Source: a virus
Virus record (IMG/VR): IMGVR_UViG_3300032560_000859
Span: 1 to 23,287 of that record
Strand: one strand, 5' to 3'
Length of the DNA: 23,287 bases
Shown: positions 732 to 15,029 of the stretch, piece after piece
How positions within the stretch are numbered: position 1 is the first letter of the stretch
Layout of the letters: the number at the start of each line of letters is the position of its first letter
Made by a program: the position numbers and the translations under genes
Notes under the pieces: model-generated
What the model saw: the letters and a program-made list of their open reading frames with translations, nothing else
Told to the model about the DNA's origin: nothing
The model's database searches: none

Positions 732-1571
732 ATGACTCATTACGAAACTTTAGGCGTTAGCGACAAAGCTACCGCAGACGAAATTAAAAAGGCTTATCGT
801 AAGCTCGCCAGTCAACATCACCCAGACAAAGGTGGCGATAAAGCCAAGTTTCAAGAAGTTCAAGCCGCATACGATACCTTGAGTGACGACAACAAGCGTC
901 AACAGTACGATATGCAACGCAATGGATTCGGTGGCAACAATACTAGAGAATTTCATTTTCACCATAGTGATATGGATGACATTTTTAAACATTTTGGGTT
1001 CGGTGCCGGGGCCGACCCATTTGCTCAACATAGACACCAACATACTAGACGCAACAAAGATCTACGTATAGAAATTCAAATACCATTAGTCACTACTCTA
1101 GAAGAACAAACTAAAACAGTCAGTGTACAAACCACAAATGGCCATAGAGAAACAATTGATGTAACTATACCACGTGGTATTACCAATGGTACACAGATTA
1201 AATATGCTGGCCTAGGTGATAATTTATTTACTACCTTGCCACGTGGCGATTTGTATGTACAATTACGTGTATTTGATGCCGACGGTTTTATCTCCAATGG
1301 TGTTGACTTATACCATAGAATTAGTGTAAACTGTTTGTTAGCAGTAGCAGGTGGTGAAGTTAATGTTACCGGTCTAGATAGTAAGAACTTTACATTAACT
1401 ATACCACCCGGAACACAGCCCGGAATTAAGTTTAGAATACCCGGCCAAGGATTGTATCAGTTGCACTCAGAATTACGCGGTGATTTGTTTGTAGAAGTAG
1501 CAGTAACAGTTCCTCAAAATTTGAGTGCTGAACAGTTAGAAATAGTTCGTTCCTTAATCAATAATCTATAA
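732..1571 (+). CDS. dnaJ: DnaJ/CbpA-like Hsp40 co-chaperone
   Basis: DnaJ proteins deliver substrates to Hsp70 (DnaK) and stimulate its ATPase. This 279-residue protein has a full J domain (about 1-62) with the H-P-D motif at 30-32 and the usual D-N-K-R-x-x-Y-D end, then a Gly/Phe linker (about 64-99, rich in F-G-x-G and His) and a DnaJ C-terminal substrate domain (about 110-275) with P-R-G-I-x-x-G and P-P-G-T-Q-P-G motifs. The CxxCxGxG zinc fingers of classical DnaJ are missing, so it is of the CbpA class. Start ATG 732 matches the normal J-domain beginning but has no Shine-Dalgarno sequence. The ClpA-like gene follows after 8 bases, which suggests a joint protein-remodelling unit acting with host DnaK. 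Confidence 0.93.
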   Translation: MTHYETLGVSDKATADEIKKAYRKLASQHHPDKGGDKAKFQEVQAAYDTLSDDNKRQQYDMQRNGFGGNNTREFHFHHSDMDDIFKHFGFGAGADPFAQHRHQHTRRNKDLRIEIQIPLVTTLEEQTKTVSVQTTNGHRETIDVTIPRGITNGTQIKYAGLGDNLFTTLPRGDLYVQLRVFDADGFISNGVDLYHRISVNCLLAVAGGEVNVTGLDSKNFTLTIPPGTQPGIKFRIPGQGLYQLHSELRGDLFVEVAVTVPQNLSAEQLEIVRSLINNL

Positions 1572-1574
1572 ATA
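1567..1574 (+). promoter_or_regulatory. T4-type late promoter motif TATAAATA before clpA
   Basis: TATAAATA is the exact T4 late promoter -10 sequence. It overlaps the dnaJ stop codon. With T4 spacing, transcription would begin six bases beyond the motif, at position 1580, which is the A of the clpA ATG. There is no Shine-Dalgarno sequence here. The motif is AT-rich and could be fortuitous. Confidence 0.45.
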
Positions 1575-1579
1575 TTTTT

Positions 1580-3868
1580 ATGATCCAACACAATCCAGAA
1601 ATTGAAGTAGTAATTGCTAGTGCAACCGACCTAGCAAAAAAATATAATCACGAATATGTCACGCTTGAACATCTAACACACGGCCTAGTAACATATAAAC
1701 CGTTTAATGATTTACTAGTGGCATTTGGTATTGATACAGTTGGTATAGTGTCTGACCTTGAGGATTACTTGTCAAAGCAGACCTATATTGTAAGTAGCGA
1801 TGCAGATAATATTCCAAAGAAAACACACAGTCTAGAACGTATCTTTAATCGTGCGTTTACACAGGTCCTGTTCAGCGGACGTAACCATGTTCAAATCATT
1901 GACATCTTCCTAAGTATTGCCAGCGAAGTAAATAGCCACTCTAGTTATTTCTTTATCAAGTACGGTCTAGAACGTAGTCAAGTGGTTGAGTACTATAATT
2001 CGCACTATGTTGAAGGAAAACAAAAACGTTTACCAGCAAATGCACGTGCAGACGATATCTTACGTGAGTACTGCGAAGATTTAAACTTAGCCGCTAAAGA
2101 TGGCAAGATCGATCCTGTAGTAGGGCGTGAATTTGAACTGGATGAAATTGCACAGGTACTTGCCAAGCGTAACAAATCTAACGTACTGTTGGTTGGCGAT
2201 CCCGGTGTAGGTAAGACTGCTATTGCAGAAGGACTTGCACGTAACATCGTTGAAGGTAATGTTCCAGAATACCTACGTGACTATACAGTATGGAACTTAG
2301 ACATCGGCTCATTACTTGCTGGATCTAAGTATCGCGGCGAGTTTGAAGAAAAGTTCAAAGACGTTATCGGCGCATTAACTAGTAAAGGCAAGTGTATTTT
2401 GTTTATCGATGAAGCACATCAAATGCGTGGTGCGGGATCTGGATCACAATCCAGCGTAGACTTTGCTAACATGATTAAACCAGCGTTAAGTAAAGGTCAG
2501 ATTAAAGTATTAGCAAGTACTACATGGGAAGAATATACACAGAGCTTTGAAAAGGATCGCGCCTTAATGCGTCGTTTCTGCAGAATGACAGTAGAAGAAC
2601 CTACTCCGGCCACAGCAAAAGAAATCTTGCATGGTCTTAAAGAATACTTTGAAGAATTCCACAGTGGCGAAATTAGCGACGAAGCTATCAATGCCGCAGT
2701 TGATTTATCAGTGCGATATCAACCGGACAAGAAATTACCAGACAAAGCAATTGACTTAATTGATACTGCTTGTGCTAAATTAAAAATTAACGCAATCAAT
2801 TGGACTTGCCGTAAGAGTCACATTGTTGATATTATTAGTAAATTCACTAAGATTCCAGCAGAACAAATTGGTAGTGAAAGTACTAAGACTCTAGTAGACT
2901 TAGAAAGTACTATTAAAACCAAGCTCTATGGACAGGATTCGGTTGTCGATACTGTATTGGATAAGATCTATGTTGCCCGTGCAGGACTTAAAGCAATGAA
3001 CAAGCCAATTGGTAACTTCTTGTTCCTAGGACCAACTGGTACAGGTAAGACAGAACTTGCTAAGTTACTTGCAGAAGGTATGGGAATGAAGATGATTCGT
3101 TACGATATGAGCGAATTCCAAGAGAAACATGCGGCTGCTAAGTTAATTGGTGCGCCCCCGGGCTATGTTGGTTACGATGATAGCAACCTAGGTGGCGGAT
3201 TACTGATTAGCGATATTGAAAAGAATCCAAATTGTGTTGTATTGTTTGATGAAGTTGAAAAAGCGCACCCGGATGTAATGAATATCTTGTTACAGTTAAT
3301 GGATGAAGGCACTATTACAAGTAGTAACGGTAAGAAAGCAGATGCACGTAACGCTGTCATCATTCTTACAAGTAACTTAGGTGCTAGTGCTAACGAGCAA
3401 AACAATATTGGCTTTGGTCGTGAATTACAAAAGTCGGGCGAAGATGATAAAGCAGTTAAAGACTTCTTTAAACCAGAGTTCCGAAATCGTTTAGATGGTA
3501 TTTGCAAATTTAATAAACTGGACCCAATTAGTATTAAGAAGATTGTTGCTAAGTTTATTAATGAGATGAATGATTTGTTAAGTGAAAAAGCATTGAAGAT
3601 TCGCCTAACTGAAGCAGCAACAGATCATTTGGCTGAAGTTGGATACGATAGCAAGATGGGTGCTCGTCTGTTGGGTCGTAAGATTAACGATTTAATTAAA
3701 GTGCCCCTAAGTAAGAAAATCTTGTTTGACGCTATTCCAGTTAATAGTATTATTGAAGTGGATTGGGCCGAAGACGAATTTAAGTTTACTATTTTGGATG
3801 CGTTTACGCCAACAGTACCAACCGTGGATAAAGATGGATATATTGTTCTGGACTCGGTGCAGTCCTAA
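1580..3868 (+). CDS. clpA: ClpA-like AAA+ unfoldase (Hsp100)
   Basis: ClpA hexamers unfold proteins and thread them into the ClpP protease. This 762-residue protein matches ClpA in length (758 in E. coli) and layout: an N-terminal Clp repeat domain (about 1-140), first AAA+ domain with Walker A GDPGVGKT (206-213) and Walker B F-I-D-E (275-278), second AAA+ domain with GPTGTGKT (484-491) and V-L-F-D-E, and the PEFRNRLD sensor region. The coiled-coil middle domain of ClpB disaggregases is absent. Residues 610-612 read I-G-F, the (I/L)-G-(F/L) loop with which ClpA and ClpX dock on ClpP. I see no phage clpP in the window, so it probably captures host ClpP. The start has no ribosome site. Confidence 0.93.
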
Positions 3869-4547
3869 GATAACCGTAGAACATACTACCAAGAAGTTCT
3901 ACGGCAAATATCTATATAAGATCGTTGTGTACTGCCCAGCGGGTCGACTAATTGATGCTAAAGGTCCAATGGACAAAGCATTAGAACACCGACTAGACGT
4001 TAGTCGACATATAACTATGAGTTGGTGGCATGCCAGAGCTAATAGAGATATAGATAAGGCCGATATCTTTCTATTAGATAAATTACGTGTTCTTAAAAAG
4101 ACCACTGATATTAAACTTCGTATAGAAGAACCTCGTGTACAAATATATGCCGCAACCGAAGCCGACCTAGTCAACTTTGTAATAGATCATTTACAACCGT
4201 TTGTTAAAAGTATAGAAACTATAAGCGGACCAGCAAACGAAGAAGCTGCTAAGTTACTAGATTCGGGTGCTATTATTCGTAAAACCGATAATGGGTACAC
4301 CCATAAAGTAATCTTACGAGACGGTAGATATGGAGAAGATATTAAAGATCTTATACTAAATTATTTAGATAATTTGCAGATAGAGAACGTGGGCGTTCCT
4401 GCTAGTTGCAGAGATATGTTTACAAAATCAACAAGTTACGTATGGAATTGTTACTTCTTTACAAATGACCCTAGTGTAACAACCTTTTTAAATTTAATAC
4501 AGCCTGGGATAGTTTCAAATATTCACGAGCTGGTAGTGACTCGCTAA
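3834..4547 (+). CDS. Conserved phage-type protein of unknown function, 237 aa
   Basis: I do not recognise a family with confidence. The chosen start is the in-frame ATG at 3834, which overlaps the clpA end by 35 bases; the frame is open further upstream inside clpA, but that part is a shadow. TTG at 3843 is another possible start. Past a short non-conserved lead the protein reads K-F-Y-G-K-Y-L-Y-K-I-V-V-Y-C-P-A-G-R, then a charged helical middle and a second alpha/beta part with V-W-N-C-Y-F-F-T-N-D near the end. No signal peptide or membrane segment is visible. It is soluble, mixed alpha/beta, and probably translationally coupled to clpA. Confidence 0.75.
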   Translation: MDILFWTRCSPKITVEHTTKKFYGKYLYKIVVYCPAGRLIDAKGPMDKALEHRLDVSRHITMSWWHARANRDIDKADIFLLDKLRVLKKTTDIKLRIEEPRVQIYAATEADLVNFVIDHLQPFVKSIETISGPANEEAAKLLDSGAIIRKTDNGYTHKVILRDGRYGEDIKDLILNYLDNLQIENVGVPASCRDMFTKSTSYVWNCYFFTNDPSVTTFLNLIQPGIVSNIHELVVTR

Positions 4548-4553
4548 TAAATA
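4546..4553 (+). promoter_or_regulatory. Late promoter-like motif AATAAATA
   Basis: AATAAATA fits the NATAAATA late motif of T4-like phages and lies directly after the stop of the preceding gene. A start near 4559 would give a 23-base leader containing a strong ribosome site AAGGAG (4570-4575) before ATG 4582, a normal late-gene arrangement. Confidence 0.5.
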
Positions 4554-5682: not shown

Positions 5683-6132
5683 ATGTCAGATACAGAAAAA
5701 TTACACATTAAAATTGGACTGTACGGTACGTACTGGGATAAAAAACCCCAGTACAGTATTGCTATCAATGATACTGTGGTTGTTGAAAAAACTCACGTTG
5801 TTACTGACACCAATGAAGTATTTTATGTAGATTTTGATTACGCCATTGTTGAGGGACCAAACACCCTTAAGATCCGCTTAGAAAATAAAGACTGGACAGA
5901 TACTATACAAAACGATGACAAAACAGAGATTCTAAAAGATATGCTGTTAGGTATTAAAAGTATAGAGATAGATGAAATTAATCTAGGCGATCTAGTTTGG
6001 AAAACTGGTGTGTTTACAGGTGATGATACTAGTCGTCCTGTATTAACAAAGTGCGTAAACTTAGGATGGAACGGTACGTGGGCATTGGAGTTTACTAGTC
6101 CATTCTATATCTGGTTGCTCGAAAGTATCTAA
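5683..6132 (+). CDS. Beta-rich protein, possible carbohydrate-binding-module fold, 149 aa
   Basis: The gene starts two bases after the glycosyltransferase stop. The protein is almost all beta-type, with I-K-I-G-L-Y-G-T-Y-W at the start, K-P-Q-Y-S-I-A-I-N-D, N-T-L-K-I-R-L-E-N-K and I-K-S-I-E-I-D-E-I-N-L-G. This order resembles small calcium-dependent carbohydrate-binding modules (CBM36/60-like). Its first 65 residues are clearly related in pattern to the 90-residue protein at 7159-7431 (Y-x3-W-x4-P-x-Y), suggesting duplication. It has an extra C-terminal part (W-K-T-G-V-F-T-G, ending Y-I-W-L-L). A glycan-binding virion protein is my inference, helped by the glycosyltransferase next door. Confidence 0.75.
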   Translation: MSDTEKLHIKIGLYGTYWDKKPQYSIAINDTVVVEKTHVVTDTNEVFYVDFDYAIVEGPNTLKIRLENKDWTDTIQNDDKTEILKDMLLGIKSIEIDEINLGDLVWKTGVFTGDDTSRPVLTKCVNLGWNGTWALEFTSPFYIWLLESI

Positions 6133-6140
6133 GATAAATA
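6133..6140 (+). promoter_or_regulatory. Late promoter-like motif GATAAATA
   Basis: GATAAATA follows the stop at 6132. Using T4 spacing the start would be 6146, just at the ribosome site AGAGG (6146-6150) of the next gene. The motif abuts the hairpin at 6140-6160, so the late RNA would lack most of that hairpin's 5' arm. Confidence 0.5.
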
Positions 6141-6160
6141 TAGTAAGAGGCCCTTACTAT
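6140..6160 (+). promoter_or_regulatory. Hairpin covering ribosome site and start codon of the 6159 gene
   Basis: ATAGTAAG (6140-6147) and CTTACTAT (6153-6160) form a perfect 8-bp stem with the five-base loop AGGCC. The loop holds part of the AGAGG ribosome site, and the 3' arm contains the first two bases of ATG 6159. In read-through RNA the start would be hidden; in RNA beginning near 6146 it would be free. Confidence 0.65.
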
Positions 6161-7157
6161 GTTTATTAACGAATTAGCAGAACCGCAAATACTTGTTGTC
6201 TACCCCGGTAGATTTCAACCTTTTCACAAAGGACATCATGCTGTTTACGAGTTTTTAACTGGTAAATTTGGCCGAAACAATGTCTATATTGCAACTAGCA
6301 ATAAAGTAGAAAAACCAAAATCCCCTTTTACATTCGCAGAAAAGTCATATTTTATGCAATTGACTGGGGTTCCTGCTGACCGTATTGTACAAGCTACTAG
6401 TCCATACAACATTGACAATGTAATAAGCGGCGGACATATCAATATAGCTAACCCAGAAAATACTGTGGTTATATTTGCTGTTAGTCAAAAGGATATGGCC
6501 GAGGATCCACGATTTAAATCATGGACCAAGAAGGACGGTAGCCCGGCATATTTCCAACCCCTCACAGATATCAAGCTCACAGAAAATATGAAAGAGCATG
6601 GTTATATTATGACTGTCCCAACCTTTGATTTTAAAGTGTTAGGCCAACCAATGCAGTCAGGCACAGAGCTACGTAAATTATATTCTGATGCAGATGAAAA
6701 GCAACGTCAATCGATTGTTGCAGACTTATTTGGTAAGTATACTCGTGAAGCTGAACAAATTTTAACTGCTAAACTTCCAGCAGAACAACCGCAGACAACA
6801 GGACTACAATCAGCACCAGAGCCTGTTGATGAAGCTGGCGGTACAGGTGTAGTTGCCAATAAGAAACAAGCTCGAGATCCACGTTATAGCATGAGCTTAA
6901 CAAAGGATGTACGTCCCGGACAAATTAATAAGAGTCTTAAAGCGTTTGATCTAGCCGAAGATTTAGCCTGGGTTAAAGATAGATTAGGAGAAGGTGCAGT
7001 TGATGAATTAACTGCTCGTCATATTGAATATATTAGCCAAGACATTGCTGCTCTTAAACAACGTATTGCCAATGAACAATTACCTTCTAATTATGTTGAA
7101 GCATTAAAGAAAAAGATTGCACAATTAGAAGCAGAACGTGCTAAGTTAGCATTTTAA
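6159..7157 (+). CDS. NMN adenylyltransferase-like nucleotidyltransferase with capsid-targeting-like N-terminus
   Basis: Residues 11-200 form a cytidylyltransferase-type Rossmann domain with the signature G-R-F-Q-P-F-H-K-G-H-H (17-27); H23-x-G-H26 is the (H/T)xGH nucleotide site. The layout, including P-F-T-F-A-E-K, is closest to NMN or related adenylyltransferases, which join NMN and ATP to make NAD; FAD synthetase-like or cytidylyltransferase activity is not excluded. The last 100 residues are a separate helical, probably coiled-coil part. The protein starts M-F-I-N-E-L-A-E and has further L/V-x-E-(A/G) sites at 223-226 (V-D-E-A) and 276-279 (L-G-E-G), fitting the prohead protease consensus. 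It lies between two paralogous beta proteins, and its ribosome site is in a hairpin. Confidence 0.85.
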   Translation: MFINELAEPQILVVYPGRFQPFHKGHHAVYEFLTGKFGRNNVYIATSNKVEKPKSPFTFAEKSYFMQLTGVPADRIVQATSPYNIDNVISGGHINIANPENTVVIFAVSQKDMAEDPRFKSWTKKDGSPAYFQPLTDIKLTENMKEHGYIMTVPTFDFKVLGQPMQSGTELRKLYSDADEKQRQSIVADLFGKYTREAEQILTAKLPAEQPQTTGLQSAPEPVDEAGGTGVVANKKQARDPRYSMSLTKDVRPGQINKSLKAFDLAEDLAWVKDRLGEGAVDELTARHIEYISQDIAALKQRIANEQLPSNYVEALKKKIAQLEAERAKLAF

Positions 7158-7158
7158 T

Positions 7159-7431
7159 ATGACAGAACACACAATAACTGTTGACGTATATGCACACTGG
7201 GGTAATCAAGCTCCTCGATATCGTGTATATGTTGATAACAATCTGTTAACCGAACGTGATTTTATTTGGCCCGGTAGTACAATGTTTGCGAGAGAACGTA
7301 TTGTAGTTAATCTAGATCCAGGCACACACTCAGTGAAAATTGAACAAATAGGTAATAGTGGAACTATACAAGCAAAGAATGTCCTAGTCGACGATATTGC
7401 AAGTTCTCTAGACTTTGTTATACCCGAATAA
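7159..7431 (+). CDS. Small beta-rich protein, paralogue of the 5683 gene product, 90 aa
   Basis: The gene starts one base after the previous stop. Its entire length follows the first half of the 149-residue protein at 5683-6132: strand-forming T-I-T-V-D-V-Y-A-H-W, then A-P-R-Y-R-V-Y-V-D-N-N, a central loop, and G-T-H-S-V-K-I-E-Q-I with a final V-L-V-D-D-I. This is the pattern of a small beta-sandwich like the CBM36/60 carbohydrate-binding modules. No signal peptide is present. Function is unknown; binding of glycans or a role as a small virion decoration protein is inferred from the fold pattern and the neighbouring glycosyltransferase. Confidence 0.75.
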   Translation: MTEHTITVDVYAHWGNQAPRYRVYVDNNLLTERDFIWPGSTMFARERIVVNLDPGTHSVKIEQIGNSGTIQAKNVLVDDIASSLDFVIPE

Positions 7432-7454: not shown

Positions 7455-7640
7455 ATGAAAAGCTCAGATTTTATTAAAGAAGACGCATCTGCTGGTGCAA
7501 CAGGCGCTAGTAGCGTATCTGCGGTTATGACAGAATTAGGCGGCTCTACCAAAGAGATCGTTAAACGTCAGCACAATTATACAAATCAACGCACTCCGGG
7601 TGGTATTGTTAAAGGCGTTAAGTCGTCAAAGGTTAAGTAA
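7455..7640 (+). CDS. Small protein with capsid-targeting-like N-terminus, 61 aa
   Basis: The product begins M-K-S-S-D-F-I-K-E-D-A, nearly the arrangement of the T4 internal-protein capsid-targeting peptide (M-K-T-Y-Q-E-F-I-A-E-A), with a predicted cut after Glu9. What follows is Ser/Ala/Gly-rich and then basic (K-E-I-V-K-R-Q-H-N-Y, ending K-G-V-K-S-S-K-V-K), suitable for a small DNA-associated internal head protein. Its stop and the next start overlap (TAATG at 7638-7642). I know no named homologue; the internal-head role is inferred from the N-terminus, size and charge. Confidence 0.75.
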   Translation: MKSSDFIKEDASAGATGASSVSAVMTELGGSTKEIVKRQHNYTNQRTPGGIVKGVKSSKVK

Positions 7641-8413
7641 TGGATAATAATTTCTCAGACATTCTAGGTATTTTTAAGAAGCTAAACGAAGGCTCTATGA
7701 AAGAGCTAATGTGGAAAGACGCTGAGCGTATGTCCCGCGAGCAATTCTGCGAAAAATGGGGTAAAGATCACGGCGATTTTTGGGATAGCATCTCTGGAGA
7801 TTTAGACGAAGGTACTATGTCCAGTGCAGAAAAGCACAGCAAAGGTCCTAAGTTTACTGGTTACTGGAAAGGTACAGATGCACGTACTCCAGGTAACAAG
7901 ATGGTTGGCGGATGCGAAGAAGGTGTAGAAGAACAGAACATGGGACCTGGTACAGGCGGTATGGAAGAATGTACATTGGAAGATAAACTACGTGCTCGTT
8001 GGGCAAAAACCAAACGTGAACAAGGTGTCGATGAAGCATTTGGTGGAAATAATCCTGGACAGGCTCCGGCTGCAACAACTCCAGGTGCCGCTCCTGCGGT
8101 TGCACCTAATGCCCCACCTGATATGAATTCCGCTGATGCAAAGAAAATTAAACAAAGTTTGCAAGGTTTAAAAAATAAGATTCCTGGAATCAATGTTGAT
8201 AAAGCAACACAGGCACTAACTAAAACCGATGCCGATCAAAAGTTAGCAACAAACGATAATGCTGCTATTGCAACAGGTCTTGCTCCAGCACTGGCTGATA
8301 TTGCTAAGAACCCACAACTTGCTAGTAAACTTAAAGACTTAGTTAGCCAGGGTCAAAAATCTGATATGGCAGCACAACAGGCAACAGCACAACAACAGGG
8401 TGGAGCACAGTAA
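7640..8413 (+). CDS. Mosaic low-complexity protein with repeated L/V-x-E-G/A sites, 257 aa
   Basis: The start ATG 7640 overlaps the previous stop. The first 60 residues form a helical part with L-N-E-G (15-18) and L-D-E-G (55-58), both fitting the (L/I)-x-E|(G/A) prohead protease consensus. A Gly-rich middle follows, then E-Q-G-V-D-E-A-F-G-G (127-136), a near-copy of the repeated motif in the next protein. An Ala/Pro-rich linker (about 138-160) leads to a helical C-terminal domain of about 80 residues and an Ala/Gln-rich tail. No enzyme motif is seen. I infer a head-internal or scaffold-like component that is cut during maturation. The next gene begins with a TAATG overlap at 8413. Confidence 0.75.
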   Translation: MDNNFSDILGIFKKLNEGSMKELMWKDAERMSREQFCEKWGKDHGDFWDSISGDLDEGTMSSAEKHSKGPKFTGYWKGTDARTPGNKMVGGCEEGVEEQNMGPGTGGMEECTLEDKLRARWAKTKREQGVDEAFGGNNPGQAPAATTPGAAPAVAPNAPPDMNSADAKKIKQSLQGLKNKIPGINVDKATQALTKTDADQKLATNDNAAIATGLAPALADIAKNPQLASKLKDLVSQGQKSDMAAQQATAQQQGGAQ

Positions 8414-10797
8414 TGTTCTTAGATGATATTGTTGGACGTATGTCCGTTGAAGAAGCTAAAAAATCTGTAACAGAATCTCCTGTTGAAAAAGGACGCAAGG
8501 TATTCCCTGGTATGCACGATCCTGCACCAGAAGGAACTTTTGCACACGATCAAGCAAAAAGAACAGTAAGCATGCCGGTAGGTCACAAACCAGGTTGGGC
8601 ATTAGATCCTGTAACAAAATTAAAATTAAAACAACAACGCCGTGCTCGTAATCGTGTTGGTGTAGATGAATCTACATCAGGTATTTGCAAAGTATGTGGA
8701 CAAACTCCTTGCAACTGCACACACATTGTTTCTGAAAACGCATGGAACGATGGTACAAACTCATGGACAAGCGAACACGATCAGTGGACTAAAGAATCGG
8801 TAGAAACCATTGTTCCATTAACCGGTGTTGATGAAGATGGCATGATTGGTCCAGATTCAACAAGTCCTATACACGGTGGTATGAATGAACAGCGGTTAAG
8901 TGTGGGTGATCCTGTTATTGTTACAGCACCAAATGCTTTCAAAGGTAAGACTGGTGAAATCTCAGAGTTTAGTCCAAGTGGCAAGTTTGTTATTGTAAAT
9001 CTTTATAACCATGGTGAACATAGTATGCACCTAAGTGACGTTGAGTACAATCAATATGCTGACGAAGAAGATGAAGGTGTTGAAGAAGGGTTTGATGATG
9101 CTGGCCCAGTTGCTGGCGCTATTACACGTCGTATATTACAACAACGTTTAGACTTATTAAAACAATACGGTCCTGAGCTAGTTGGTGCCGCTGTTGATAA
9201 CGTTGCTGACTATGTTGGCGATGTTGAAGAAATTGGTAGCAGTGATGTTAGTGCTTGGGTAGCACAGGTTGAACGTATGCTTGAAGAAAACCCACCGGAG
9301 GCCTTTGCTGAAGGCTGGCAAGACTTCAATAAGGTAGAGCCATATGCTGTTTGTTTAGCTGGCAAGCCTGTTAAGAAGTTTGACTACTATGAAGAAGCTC
9401 GCAAGTTCCACGACAACTGGAAGAAGAAGTTATATGCTCAAGGCGACAAAGAAAAGGCAGACAAGATTACATTGATGCCGTTGAATCTTGATGAGGAGCA
9501 AAAGCCAGGGTTTGGTGAGTTCCCACCAAAGCAGGAAATTACAATTCTTCCTCCTAAAAAATTAAAGTCAGGCGAGACCTATCAGGACCGCAACAAGTAT
9601 TGGCAATCACAGGGTCAGGCTCCTATTTACAAAACAAACGAAGTAACTAATCGTCACTTTGGTCCTAAAGGTGCTGGCACAGAATTAGCACGTCAGATTC
9701 GTGCCGAGTTAGCAAGCACACAACCACGTAAAGGTACACCAGTTCCAGCCAAAGAATTTGCAAAAGGTATTGAAAAAGATTTACAAAAAGCAATGGCTAA
9801 GCCTAAAATTCAAGTTAAAAAGAACAAAGGTGTGGCGGAAGGTCATGCAGACCAACAACGCAAGATCTTTAAGAAAAACGGCAAACCAGTGGGCGAAGTT
9901 GGTATTGACCGCGAGTCAAGCCCTGGTGCTGGTCAGTGGTATATGAAGTGCTATGCTCGTAATATAGATTTAGCAGGTTACGACTCATATGAAGAAGCTG
10001 TAGCAGAATTAAAGCATTGTATGAAGCAAGGGGTGGCGGAGGCTGTTCCGGTTATATCCGGTGGGGTTGATCCTAAAATTCAGTTCTTACAGCCAACGAT
10101 ACAGTTTGCTGAAAAACACGGATATAAAGTAACAATTAATCCAAATCCCAATGGCAAACTATTTGCAAAGTTGGTTAATAAACAAATTGAACATACTGTT
10201 CGTATAGGGTTTAGTCGTGGTCGAGACCCGGGTACTAAACTTGAAGCTGAGATGACAGACGATTGGGACAGTCAAACTTGGGCGTGGTCAGCAAGAGAAT
10301 TGGCACAAGATTTCAAAGAGTTTTATCGAGATGCACTTAGAGACAGCCCTGTCCAAGGACAGCAAGGTGTGGCGGAAGGCTTCTTTGGTGATATAAAACA
10401 ATCCTTTGCTATTGGTATGGTAGATAAACTTAAAAAAGCAATACCGGCACAATATCATAAACATTATGATTTTGATTCTGTTAAATCTCCAGGTGATACT
10501 AAAGCTATAGTAGCTCGAGCAAGAGCCGCAGGGCATTTGAAAGAACAAGGTGTAGCAGAGGCTGAAACAGATTACTCCAAACGTCGTCAACGTGAGCGTG
10601 ATGTTGATGCTGGTAAGCCAGTTAGCCGTCAACCAAAAAACCCACAAACTGACTACGCTAAAAAACGTGCTCAACAGAAGAAAGAATTAGAGTTAGGCGA
10701 AAGTACAAACTATTGGACTAAACTACAGAGTGAACGTAATACAAAAATTGCTAGTTTAGTAAACGAATTATCGGAAAGTGTTAACAAAACAAAATGA
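8413..10797 (+). CDS. Large modular protein with repeated GVAE(G/A) motifs, putative processed polyprotein, 794 aa
   Basis: This protein looks like a string of small unrelated modules. In order: a basic lead; a four-cysteine cluster (C92, C95, C100, C102) that may bind zinc; a KOW/SH3-like part (about 161-215); a helical segment (about 230-290); two segments with G-K-P-V and a Tyr/Glu-Glu-Ala helix (about 302-365 and 480-535); and a basic C-terminus with two T-D-Y-(S/A)-K-(R/K)-R units. Seams carry G-V-A-E-(G/A) at 473-477, 540-544, 652-656 and 713-717, with G-V-E-E-G at 222-226 and G-V-D-E-S at 83-87. They fit a T4-type prohead protease site. L-S-E-S near the C-terminus resembles the N-terminal leader of neighbouring proteins. 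No catalytic motif is visible. A head-internal polyprotein is my inference. Confidence 0.82.
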   Translation: MFLDDIVGRMSVEEAKKSVTESPVEKGRKVFPGMHDPAPEGTFAHDQAKRTVSMPVGHKPGWALDPVTKLKLKQQRRARNRVGVDESTSGICKVCGQTPCNCTHIVSENAWNDGTNSWTSEHDQWTKESVETIVPLTGVDEDGMIGPDSTSPIHGGMNEQRLSVGDPVIVTAPNAFKGKTGEISEFSPSGKFVIVNLYNHGEHSMHLSDVEYNQYADEEDEGVEEGFDDAGPVAGAITRRILQQRLDLLKQYGPELVGAAVDNVADYVGDVEEIGSSDVSAWVAQVERMLEENPPEAFAEGWQDFNKVEPYAVCLAGKPVKKFDYYEEARKFHDNWKKKLYAQGDKEKADKITLMPLNLDEEQKPGFGEFPPKQEITILPPKKLKSGETYQDRNKYWQSQGQAPIYKTNEVTNRHFGPKGAGTELARQIRAELASTQPRKGTPVPAKEFAKGIEKDLQKAMAKPKIQVKKNKGVAEGHADQQRKIFKKNGKPVGEVGIDRESSPGAGQWYMKCYARNIDLAGYDSYEEAVAELKHCMKQGVAEAVPVISGGVDPKIQFLQPTIQFAEKHGYKVTINPNPNGKLFAKLVNKQIEHTVRIGFSRGRDPGTKLEAEMTDDWDSQTWAWSARELAQDFKEFYRDALRDSPVQGQQGVAEGFFGDIKQSFAIGMVDKLKKAIPAQYHKHYDFDSVKSPGDTKAIVARARAAGHLKEQGVAEAETDYSKRRQRERDVDAGKPVSRQPKNPQTDYAKKRAQQKKELELGESTNYWTKLQSERNTKIASLVNELSESVNKTK
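9829..9843 (+). repeat. GVAEG seam repeat, copy 1
   Basis: The DNA ggtgtggcggaaggt encodes G-V-A-E-G at residues 473-477. The first 14 bases are identical to copy 3 at 10366-10380, and the GTG GCG codon pair contrasts with the GTT/GTA and GCT/GCA common nearby. Confidence 0.7.
10030..10044 (+). repeat. GVAEA seam repeat, copy 2
   Basis: The DNA ggggtggcggaggct encodes G-V-A-E-A at residues 540-544, again with GTG GCG, preceded by caa as in copies 3 and 4. Confidence 0.7.
10366..10380 (+). repeat. GVAEG seam repeat, copy 3
   Basis: The DNA ggtgtggcggaaggc encodes G-V-A-E-G at residues 652-656 and is preceded by cagcaa. It differs from copy 1 only in the last base. Confidence 0.7.
10549..10563 (+). 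repeat. GVAEA seam repeat, copy 4
   Basis: The DNA ggtgtagcagaggct encodes G-V-A-E-A at residues 713-717, preceded by gaacaa. The same gaacaaggtgt occurs at the G-V-D-E-A site of the previous gene (8018-8028). Confidence 0.65.
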
Positions 10798-12942: not shown

Positions 12943-13725
12943 TTAATTACGGTGTGAATGGGCTCGCCGCTGCCCTTCGAATATATGGAAGTCGTGCTCC
13001 GGAATGTATTTGGAAAAAGCGGTTTTACATTCCTTGTGATATCGAGCAAAGTTTCTGATATCAACTTCTACCTTACAACATAAACAACTAACCCGAGATG
13101 GGGCTGTACCTTTATTGTGAGCAGGTTGACCTTTTCTAGCAATTGATATATTTTTAGCGGCCCGTTCTCTTGCTTCAGCCGATTGCCCTTTAGTTGAGAA
13201 TCCTTTTCTATTTTTAACATCTACGCGAAGATATTCTATATATTCTTTGCTACGTTCATACTTTCCCATATTACCACGGGATAGTTGTCCAGTGCTATAC
13301 TTTAACTCTCGTTCTTTAATAGATTGTTTTATTTGATCTAATCTCTCGGCATCTGTTATTTTTATACCTTTTAAAGGCGACGGAACGTTACGTCTTGCAT
13401 CGGATGATTTTAATCTCAGAGATTCATACCAATGGCTGTTTAATTTATAACGGAGTTGATTATTCGACGTTGTAGCAAACATAAATGCCGCCTTTGCCAT
13501 TTTCATTTTATTTTCGCCTTTGGTCATTTTAGTAAGGAGTAAATGACATATAAAATGTTCTCGAGCAGTTAGTTTAACTAAATTATTTTTTGAATTACTG
13601 CCACCTAAACTTTTTGGTATAATATGGTGACGTTCTGTGTATACTTCTTTTGATAAAACTCTTGATTGTGCGTTAGAAATGATGCTATAATAGAATTTGG
13701 TATATTTGTTGTTGATAAATATCAT
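12943..13725 (-). CDS. HNH homing endonuclease, free-standing, 260 aa
   Basis: This reverse-strand gene encodes a DNase of the HNH homing type, which cuts a cognate site and spreads its own gene by repair. The HNH core is near the N-terminus: E-R-H-H-I-I-P-K-S-L-G-G, N-N-L-V-K-L-T, then A-R-E-H-F-I-C-H. A DNA-recognition region follows, with a NUMOD3-like repeat (A-R-E-R-A-A-K-N-I-S-I-A-R-K-G, about 185-205). Near the C-terminus C-L-C-C with a downstream H-K-E-C (about 217-235) looks like a zinc finger. Its start has a ribosome site AAGGAA (13735-13740). It stands against the direction of its neighbours, between the deaminase and dsbA, and is more AT-rich than they are, as expected of a mobile gene. 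No intron is seen around it. Confidence 0.9.
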   Translation of the reverse strand: MIFINNKYTKFYYSIISNAQSRVLSKEVYTERHHIIPKSLGGSNSKNNLVKLTAREHFICHLLLTKMTKGENKMKMAKAAFMFATTSNNQLRYKLNSHWYESLRLKSSDARRNVPSPLKGIKITDAERLDQIKQSIKERELKYSTGQLSRGNMGKYERSKEYIEYLRVDVKNRKGFSTKGQSAEARERAAKNISIARKGQPAHNKGTAPSRVSCLCCKVEVDIRNFARYHKECKTAFSKYIPEHDFHIFEGQRRAHSHRN

Positions 13726-14116: not shown

Positions 14117-14406
14117 TATCAAATGTTGTTGCATACATCCGCAAGGATTATGAAGAAAACCCATTACGTTGTGTTTTAGAAATAATAGGTTGGTTTGGTA
14201 GCGTAGGTTGTGCTCTAGGCATGACATGGTTCTTACCTAACCCGCCGCTGTTGCCACTGTATACTATATGGGTAATTAGTACAATAATCTATTCTTGGGC
14301 AGCATGGACACGCGGATCATTTGGCATGCTGGCCAATTATGCGTTGCTGTTTTGTATTGATTCTGTAGGACTAACAAAACTGGTCATCCAATGGTTTAAT
14401 ACATAA
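14113..14406 (+). CDS. Small inner-membrane protein with three predicted transmembrane helices, 97 aa
   Basis: The start is TTG at 14113, overlapping the dsbA stop (TTGA), so translation is likely coupled to dsbA. Three hydrophobic spans are visible: about 17-41 (L-E-I-I-G-W-F-G-S-V-G-C-A-L-G), 44-64 (L-Y-T-I-W-V-I-S-T-I-I-Y-S-W-A-A-W) and 70-91 (F-G-M-L-A-N-Y-A-L-L-F-C-I-D). The N-terminal 15 residues are charged. Conserved-looking W-A-A-W-T-R and F-G-M-L-A-N-Y suggest a real family, though I know no assigned function. The last 70 bases overlap the 3' end of the reverse-strand gene at 14337. Confidence 0.78.
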   Translation: MISNVVAYIRKDYEENPLRCVLEIIGWFGSVGCALGMTWFLPNPPLLPLYTIWVISTIIYSWAAWTRGSFGMLANYALLFCIDSVGLTKLVIQWFNT

Positions 14407-15029
14407 TCGGTTGCAATACTATGTGCTTCGGCACCAGCATGGGTTCCTATAAACGGGAACCCATTTTGTTTTGCCCAATTGATAAATCCGTTGTTGTCAA
14501 ACCATTGGAACTTATCCCAGTCTATCAATGATTTAATACTAGCAAGATACGGATCAGGATTATTAAAACAATAACTATCCTTGATAGCATTGTTGTCCAT
14601 GGAAAATATATAAGATAAGTTATTTTGTTTCAAATATGTTTGCGTAAGCGCAATGTCTTTAAGCGACATATATACTTCCGTATACTCTAGCTTACCGGGA
14701 CCATCTAGCCATTCACGTATTAATCCATTGTCAGTTTCAGAATGTGCTGTAAATCCGTTCCACCCTTGTTCAGTTTTAAATTCGTAGCGATTAGGTGATG
14801 ACCATAGTACAAATACAAAATCGGTATCTGTGTGTTCAGACCCTAGTACTTTACGAGATATCTTACTATTGCTTGATAATGGTTTGCCGCGGCATACATA
14901 ATCTAATTCTAATGCACGAGCAAGTTTGGCAGGAAATGCTAAAGTTTTGTCTTTCCCCGAATTGCCCAATAGTTCAGTGCCATCAATTGGGCTTGATCCG
15001 TAGGCAATTAATCTATTATATTTTGACAT
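14337..15029 (-). CDS. SGNH-hydrolase-like protein, 230 aa
   Basis: The N-terminus reads R-L-I-A-Y-G-S-S, in the position of the G-(D/C)-S nucleophile block of SGNH hydrolases, followed by F-P-A-K-L-A-R-A-L and S-S-N-S-K-I (possible block with Asn). Near the end G-T-H-A-G-A-E-A-H-S-I-A resembles the block holding the catalytic histidine. The family is common in aquatic T4-like phages and would hydrolyse an ester or acetyl group, but the motifs are not all canonical and activity is uncertain. Start ATG (15027-15029, reverse) has no ribosome site and lies five bases from a TTAAATA late-like motif. Its 3' end overlaps the membrane gene by 70 bases. Confidence 0.72.
   Translation of the reverse strand: MSKYNRLIAYGSSPIDGTELLGNSGKDKTLAFPAKLARALELDYVCRGKPLSSNSKISRKVLGSEHTDTDFVFVLWSSPNRYEFKTEQGWNGFTAHSETDNGLIREWLDGPGKLEYTEVYMSLKDIALTQTYLKQNNLSYIFSMDNNAIKDSYCFNNPDPYLASIKSLIDWDKFQWFDNNGFINWAKQNGFPFIGTHAGAEAHSIATDYVLNHWMTSFVSPTESIQNSNA

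Follow-up and report, generated by a model that had tools for sequence, protein, structure and literature searches.

A late promoter within a start-hiding hairpin of a giant T4-like phage: a probable case of translation gated by the RNA 5' end

Whether a late phage gene can be translated or not according to where its RNA begins is the question raised by a short intergenic junction in the window, i.e., the whole stretch of 23,287 nucleotides analysed here. On its + strand, a gene coding for a cytidylyl/adenylyltransferase-like protein of 332 aa (6159..7157; PF01467, E = 1.9e-5; TIGR00125, E = 6e-8; weak matches to NMNAT in the PDB) follows a gene at 5683..6132 which would be the source of read-through RNA and whose stop codon (6130-6132) adjoins a T4-type late promoter box, GATAAATA, at 6133..6140; in relatives, too, the stem is preceded by a similar gene end. 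Further late promoter boxes are found at neighbouring genes, one at 7427 and one, AATAAATA at 4546..4553 (+), belonging to the upstream operon (ATG 4582). As judged by its DNA polymerase, which is closest to those of Sinorhizobium phage Phosso (51%) and Agrobacterium phage Atu_ph07 (47%), the window is a fragment of a giant T4-like phage, and a gene for a gp55-like late sigma factor is present in six of ten related contigs (E = 6e-15 to 8e-6), the window itself comprising only 23 kb.

As a reading made from the letters alone (the sequence-only reading) had claimed, the promoter box abuts a perfect 8-bp stem, in which the 5' arm ATAGTAAG (6140..6147, +) pairs across the loop AGGCC (6148..6152, +) with the 3' arm CTTACTAT (6153..6160, +), the latter including the AU of the start codon ATG at 6159-6161. 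The same reading had the stem enclose the Shine-Dalgarno-like AGAGG (6146..6150, +) together with the first bases of the ATG. Both do lie within the hairpin, but only two of the five bases of AGAGG are paired, the other three being in the loop, and the predicted stem is longer, with 15 bp including two G-U pairs (6133-6147 with 6153-6167), so extended that it also takes in the promoter box and codons 2-3. The fold energy of 68 nt amounts to -17.5 kcal/mol (z = -3.8; 0 of 200 shuffles as good), and an RNA begun at 6146 folds weakly (-3.4). In terms of computed folds, opening the start region would cost 11.7 kcal/mol on read-through RNA versus 0.8 kcal/mol on late RNA. When the 18-nt leader was shuffled, comparable stems extending to the ATG arose in 0.24% of trials. 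Since perfect hairpins of at least 8 bp are in no excess across the whole window (2 found versus 2.75 expected), it is the position of the hairpin that is unusual. A perfect 9-bp hairpin, ATGGGTTCC/GGAACCCAT with an 8-nt loop, lies at 14439-14464 within the coding region of a - strand gene (14337-15029).

The position of the late RNA start was approached by counting the distance from TAAATA to ATG in five related contigs (about 986 kb) and in the window. The distribution is bimodal, one peak being sharp and located at exactly 5 nt, the other broad and lying near 20; the former comprises 53 genes versus 1-5 for control hexamers not overlapping the box; the control hexamer ATAAAT does overlap it and peaks accordingly. 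Shine-Dalgarno signals are scarce in the 3-8 nt class (9% versus 65%; mean anti-SD energy -0.98 versus -4.44), and these short-spacing genes are apparently transcribed as leaderless late mRNAs. Read in this way, the short class places the late start at the sixth base after TAAATA, here presumably 6146 (+), in agreement with T4, where roughly one helical turn separates the late box from the start downstream (PMC2988020); the earlier proposal of a late start at about 6146 is thus backed indirectly by this calibration. The 5-nt peak is absent in T4, in Phosso and in the examined part of Atu_ph07, and T4-type late genes without a leader were not found described in the literature that could be searched. 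Within the window, the 5-nt spacing occurs at 1567-1580 (+) and 15040-15029 (-), and further examples are found in G001, G004, G005, G007 and G008; upstream of the ClpA-like gene at 1580 the short spacing is kept in three relatives. Orthologs share the leaderless state in 51 pairs versus 21 with shuffled labels (largest of 1000 shuffles 46), and the hairpin state in 17 pairs versus 7.8, which is not significant (largest 21).

With respect to the nucleotidyltransferase gene itself, only two distant homologs were obtained from the phages collection, and IMG/VR was used for relatives. TAAATA is present upstream of 57 of the 68 distinct ortholog starts. The stem of the window (stem A, TAGTAA..TTACT with variable loops) is conserved in ten distinct sequences (the window, L002, L003, L006, L007 and L009-L013), all of which beat leader shuffles; in two of them, L007 and L013, the late leader lacks a clear Shine-Dalgarno. 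In fifteen orthologs the stem is an unrelated one, formed by CCTCTATAG and the SD arm CTATAGAGG (p < 0.05 in 13 of them), and further unrelated stems are found in L030, L024, L032 and L033. The arms of stem A hardly vary and thus show little covariation, and in both the stem-A and the CCTCTATAG groups covariation is too weak to decide anything. In seven orthologs CAGCAAY pairs with codons 3-6, where one pair is C-G or U-A, changed on both sides, and 56 of 56 cells are paired; in energetic terms this stem hides the start weakly. Finally, TAAATA lies 5-7 nt before the ATG in fourteen orthologs. Stem loss in close relatives with no compensating change had been named beforehand as an observation that would speak against the element, and here it comes through with a qualification: L004 and L008, which fall into the stem-A clade of a quick ortholog tree with many weakly supported inner branches, have lost the stem, but their promoters lie 7 and 6 nt, respectively, from the ATG. 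What these stems have in common is an arrangement and not a sequence, the 5' arm being located before the late start and the 3' arm at the ribosome site.

A blind scan of IMG/VR DNA for the pattern TAAATATAGTAA-N4..13-TTACTATG returned 51 contigs with 38 distinct elements. Nearly all of these precede one of two types of nucleotidyltransferase gene, and most follow an upstream gene with a similar end. In 27 of the 38 elements, the free pair at the inner end of the stem is a standard one (G-U included). A looser genome scan returned mostly unrelated genes. In L290-L340, this stem is found upstream of both types of nucleotidyltransferase gene, the YPGRFQPFH and the FGRMNPPT type, and in L320, a 289-kb contig, the exact hairpin of the window precedes a diverged protein, which gives the impression that the gene following the element was exchanged.

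To compare the locus with T4, a start-hiding score was defined as the cost of opening the region from -14 to +3 on read-through RNA minus that on late RNA. The top scores in T4, ranging from 9.6 to 13.4 kcal/mol, are those at 66997 (e, two promoters), 45612 (I-TevII), 46855 (49), 71918 (segB) and 144431 (I-TevI); e, I-TevII, 49 and I-TevI are named among the T4 genes with such structures, and segB as implicated (PMC3014915, PMC2988022). T4 soc, which is also named in the literature for such a structure, stays below 4 kcal/mol in the scan. The window gene at 6159 scores 10.9 kcal/mol and thus falls within the range of the known T4 cases. In a survey of 454 leadered late promoter-gene pairs from 13 genomes or fragments, a score of at least 6 was reached by 13.9% of the pairs, as opposed to 3.3% after promoter swapping and 4.9% of non-late starts; in several, e.g., L175, L168, L165 and L193, the promoter lies in the loop and the anti-SD arm upstream of TAAATA. 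The expected preference for read-through contexts was not borne out: hairpins are not enriched downstream of a close co-directional gene, where 12% was found as compared to 21% with the co-directional gene farther away, 7% behind a terminator and 15% in divergent arrangement.

Three other features of the window may be recorded here. An HNH homing-endonuclease-like gene at 12943-13725 (-) has a late promoter box about 63 nt upstream, near 13794-13789, and a structured leader (131 nt, z = -2.4), and a similar gene in G002 has a start-hiding score of 6.9. The proteins encoded at 6159, 11209 and 11635 (+) have similar N-termini (MFINELAE, MKINEIITE and MKITEIIVE), which we take to recall the capsid-targeting sequence of T4 internal proteins; in G001 such a pattern is found in 9 of 683 ORFs versus 1 with shuffled N-termini. 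The motif G-V-[ADE]-E is repeated seven times in 8413-10797 and twice in 7640-8413 (+), and these repeats may be sites at which a head protein is cleaved by a protease during processing.

Taken as a model built from sequence comparison, the element is probably a 5'-end-gated translation device of the T4 gene e/I-TevI type, and the T4 logic proposed for it at the outset is well supported by the conserved box, the calibrated start, the stem in ten sequences and the score. On RNA begun upstream of 6133, bases 6133-6147 would pair with 6153-6167, so that the start codon would be buried together with some of the Shine-Dalgarno bases; RNA from the gene's own promoter, starting at about 6146, would keep no more than two bases of the 5' arm and stay open. 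With late RNA open and read-through RNA folded, the nucleotidyltransferase gene would be translated mainly from its own late transcript. What the analysis shows is the sequence, the predicted stem and its conservation, the unrelated stems of other orthologs and a score like that of T4 cases; the start at 6146, pairing in vivo and the strength of the effect are inferred from these, and the RNA silenced may be early, middle or upstream late.

The physics of such a device would be the same if its purpose was that of an operon insulator and not of a clock. The stem would then hide the start on late RNA coming from 4546, so that the dose of the protein would be set by the gene's own promoter only. 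We consider this a real, if tentative, contender: late boxes are present at neighbouring genes on either side, and no terminator-like site was found on the + strand between 4546 and 6159; against it stands the documented use of the device in T4, which is directed against early and middle read-through RNA (PMC3014915, PMC2988022). Given the late boxes of the surrounding genes, early RNA and late RNA from upstream are equally likely to be what the stem silences. Of the "temporal translation switch" in the sequence-only reading, gating by the 5' end is therefore upheld by comparison, whereas "temporal" is a plausible reading: with the upstream late promoter and no terminator-like site found in between, read-through RNA may itself be late. 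To call read-through RNA "silent" likewise claims more than the folds show: because the upstream stop codon abuts the stem, a ribosome terminating at 6130-6132 could open it.

An inverted repeat that overlaps a late promoter might be a DNA operator for a dimeric repressor, and T4 I-TevI does repress its own late promoter (PMC2988022); however, from one stem-A element to another the arms lie several bases closer together or farther apart, and the stems found at this place in orthologs include ones unrelated in sequence, so that we regard an operator as unlikely. An RNA processing site, at which the hairpin would be cut to separate the gene from the operon, would fit a hairpin situated exactly at the intergenic junction. 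Yet the late promoter abuts or lies inside the 5' arm across unlike stems, an arrangement that processing does not need, which makes this explanation, too, a rather improbable one. That an AT-rich promoter spacer just happens to complement the start region would accord with perfect 8-bp hairpins being in no excess window-wide, but conservation in ten distinct sequences, the shuffle tests and the blind scan render coincidence very improbable indeed.

Beyond the single gene-e-like device, RNA-start-dependent translation might be a genome-wide strategy for late genes in giant T4-like phages, in which split stems hiding the ribosome-binding site and leaderless mRNAs would be interchangeable, and one gene family would have switched between both and rebuilt unrelated stems several times. 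Comparative data lend this generalisation nearly even chances. In T4 the device is known from a handful of genes; a score recovering most of the T4 cases exceeds its controls across giant T4-like phages, and one nucleotidyltransferase family has several unrelated stems at the same place. It would seem from this that the translation of late genes in these phages often depends on the 5' end of the RNA, and sequence rules are gained for annotating late promoters and true start codons. The device as such is already known, and the gene, the phage group and the apparent breadth are additions; for the breadth and for the interchange of hairpins and leaderless starts, no description was found in the searchable literature.

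Among known systems, the split hairpin of T4, documented against early and middle read-through RNA (PMC3014915, PMC2988022), comes closest. In gene e (lysozyme) the late box likewise lies in the 5' part of a start-hiding hairpin and late RNA would begin at the Shine-Dalgarno, with scores of 13.4 and 11.5 as compared to 10.9 in the window gene; however, gene and stem sequence are different, e has two late promoters, and its device was proven by experiment whereas that of the window is predicted. I-TevI, I-TevII and segB likewise have a late promoter located inside a hairpin which covers the ribosome site and can form on read-through RNA only, but these genes reside in introns or among tRNA genes, in contrast to the window gene, which encodes a nucleotidyltransferase and has many late promoters around it. 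Leaderless mRNAs, finally, resemble the element in that orthologs with TAAATA 5-7 nt before the ATG would likewise depend on the RNA start, while the window gene differs from them by a putative 13-nt leader, a Shine-Dalgarno and a stem.
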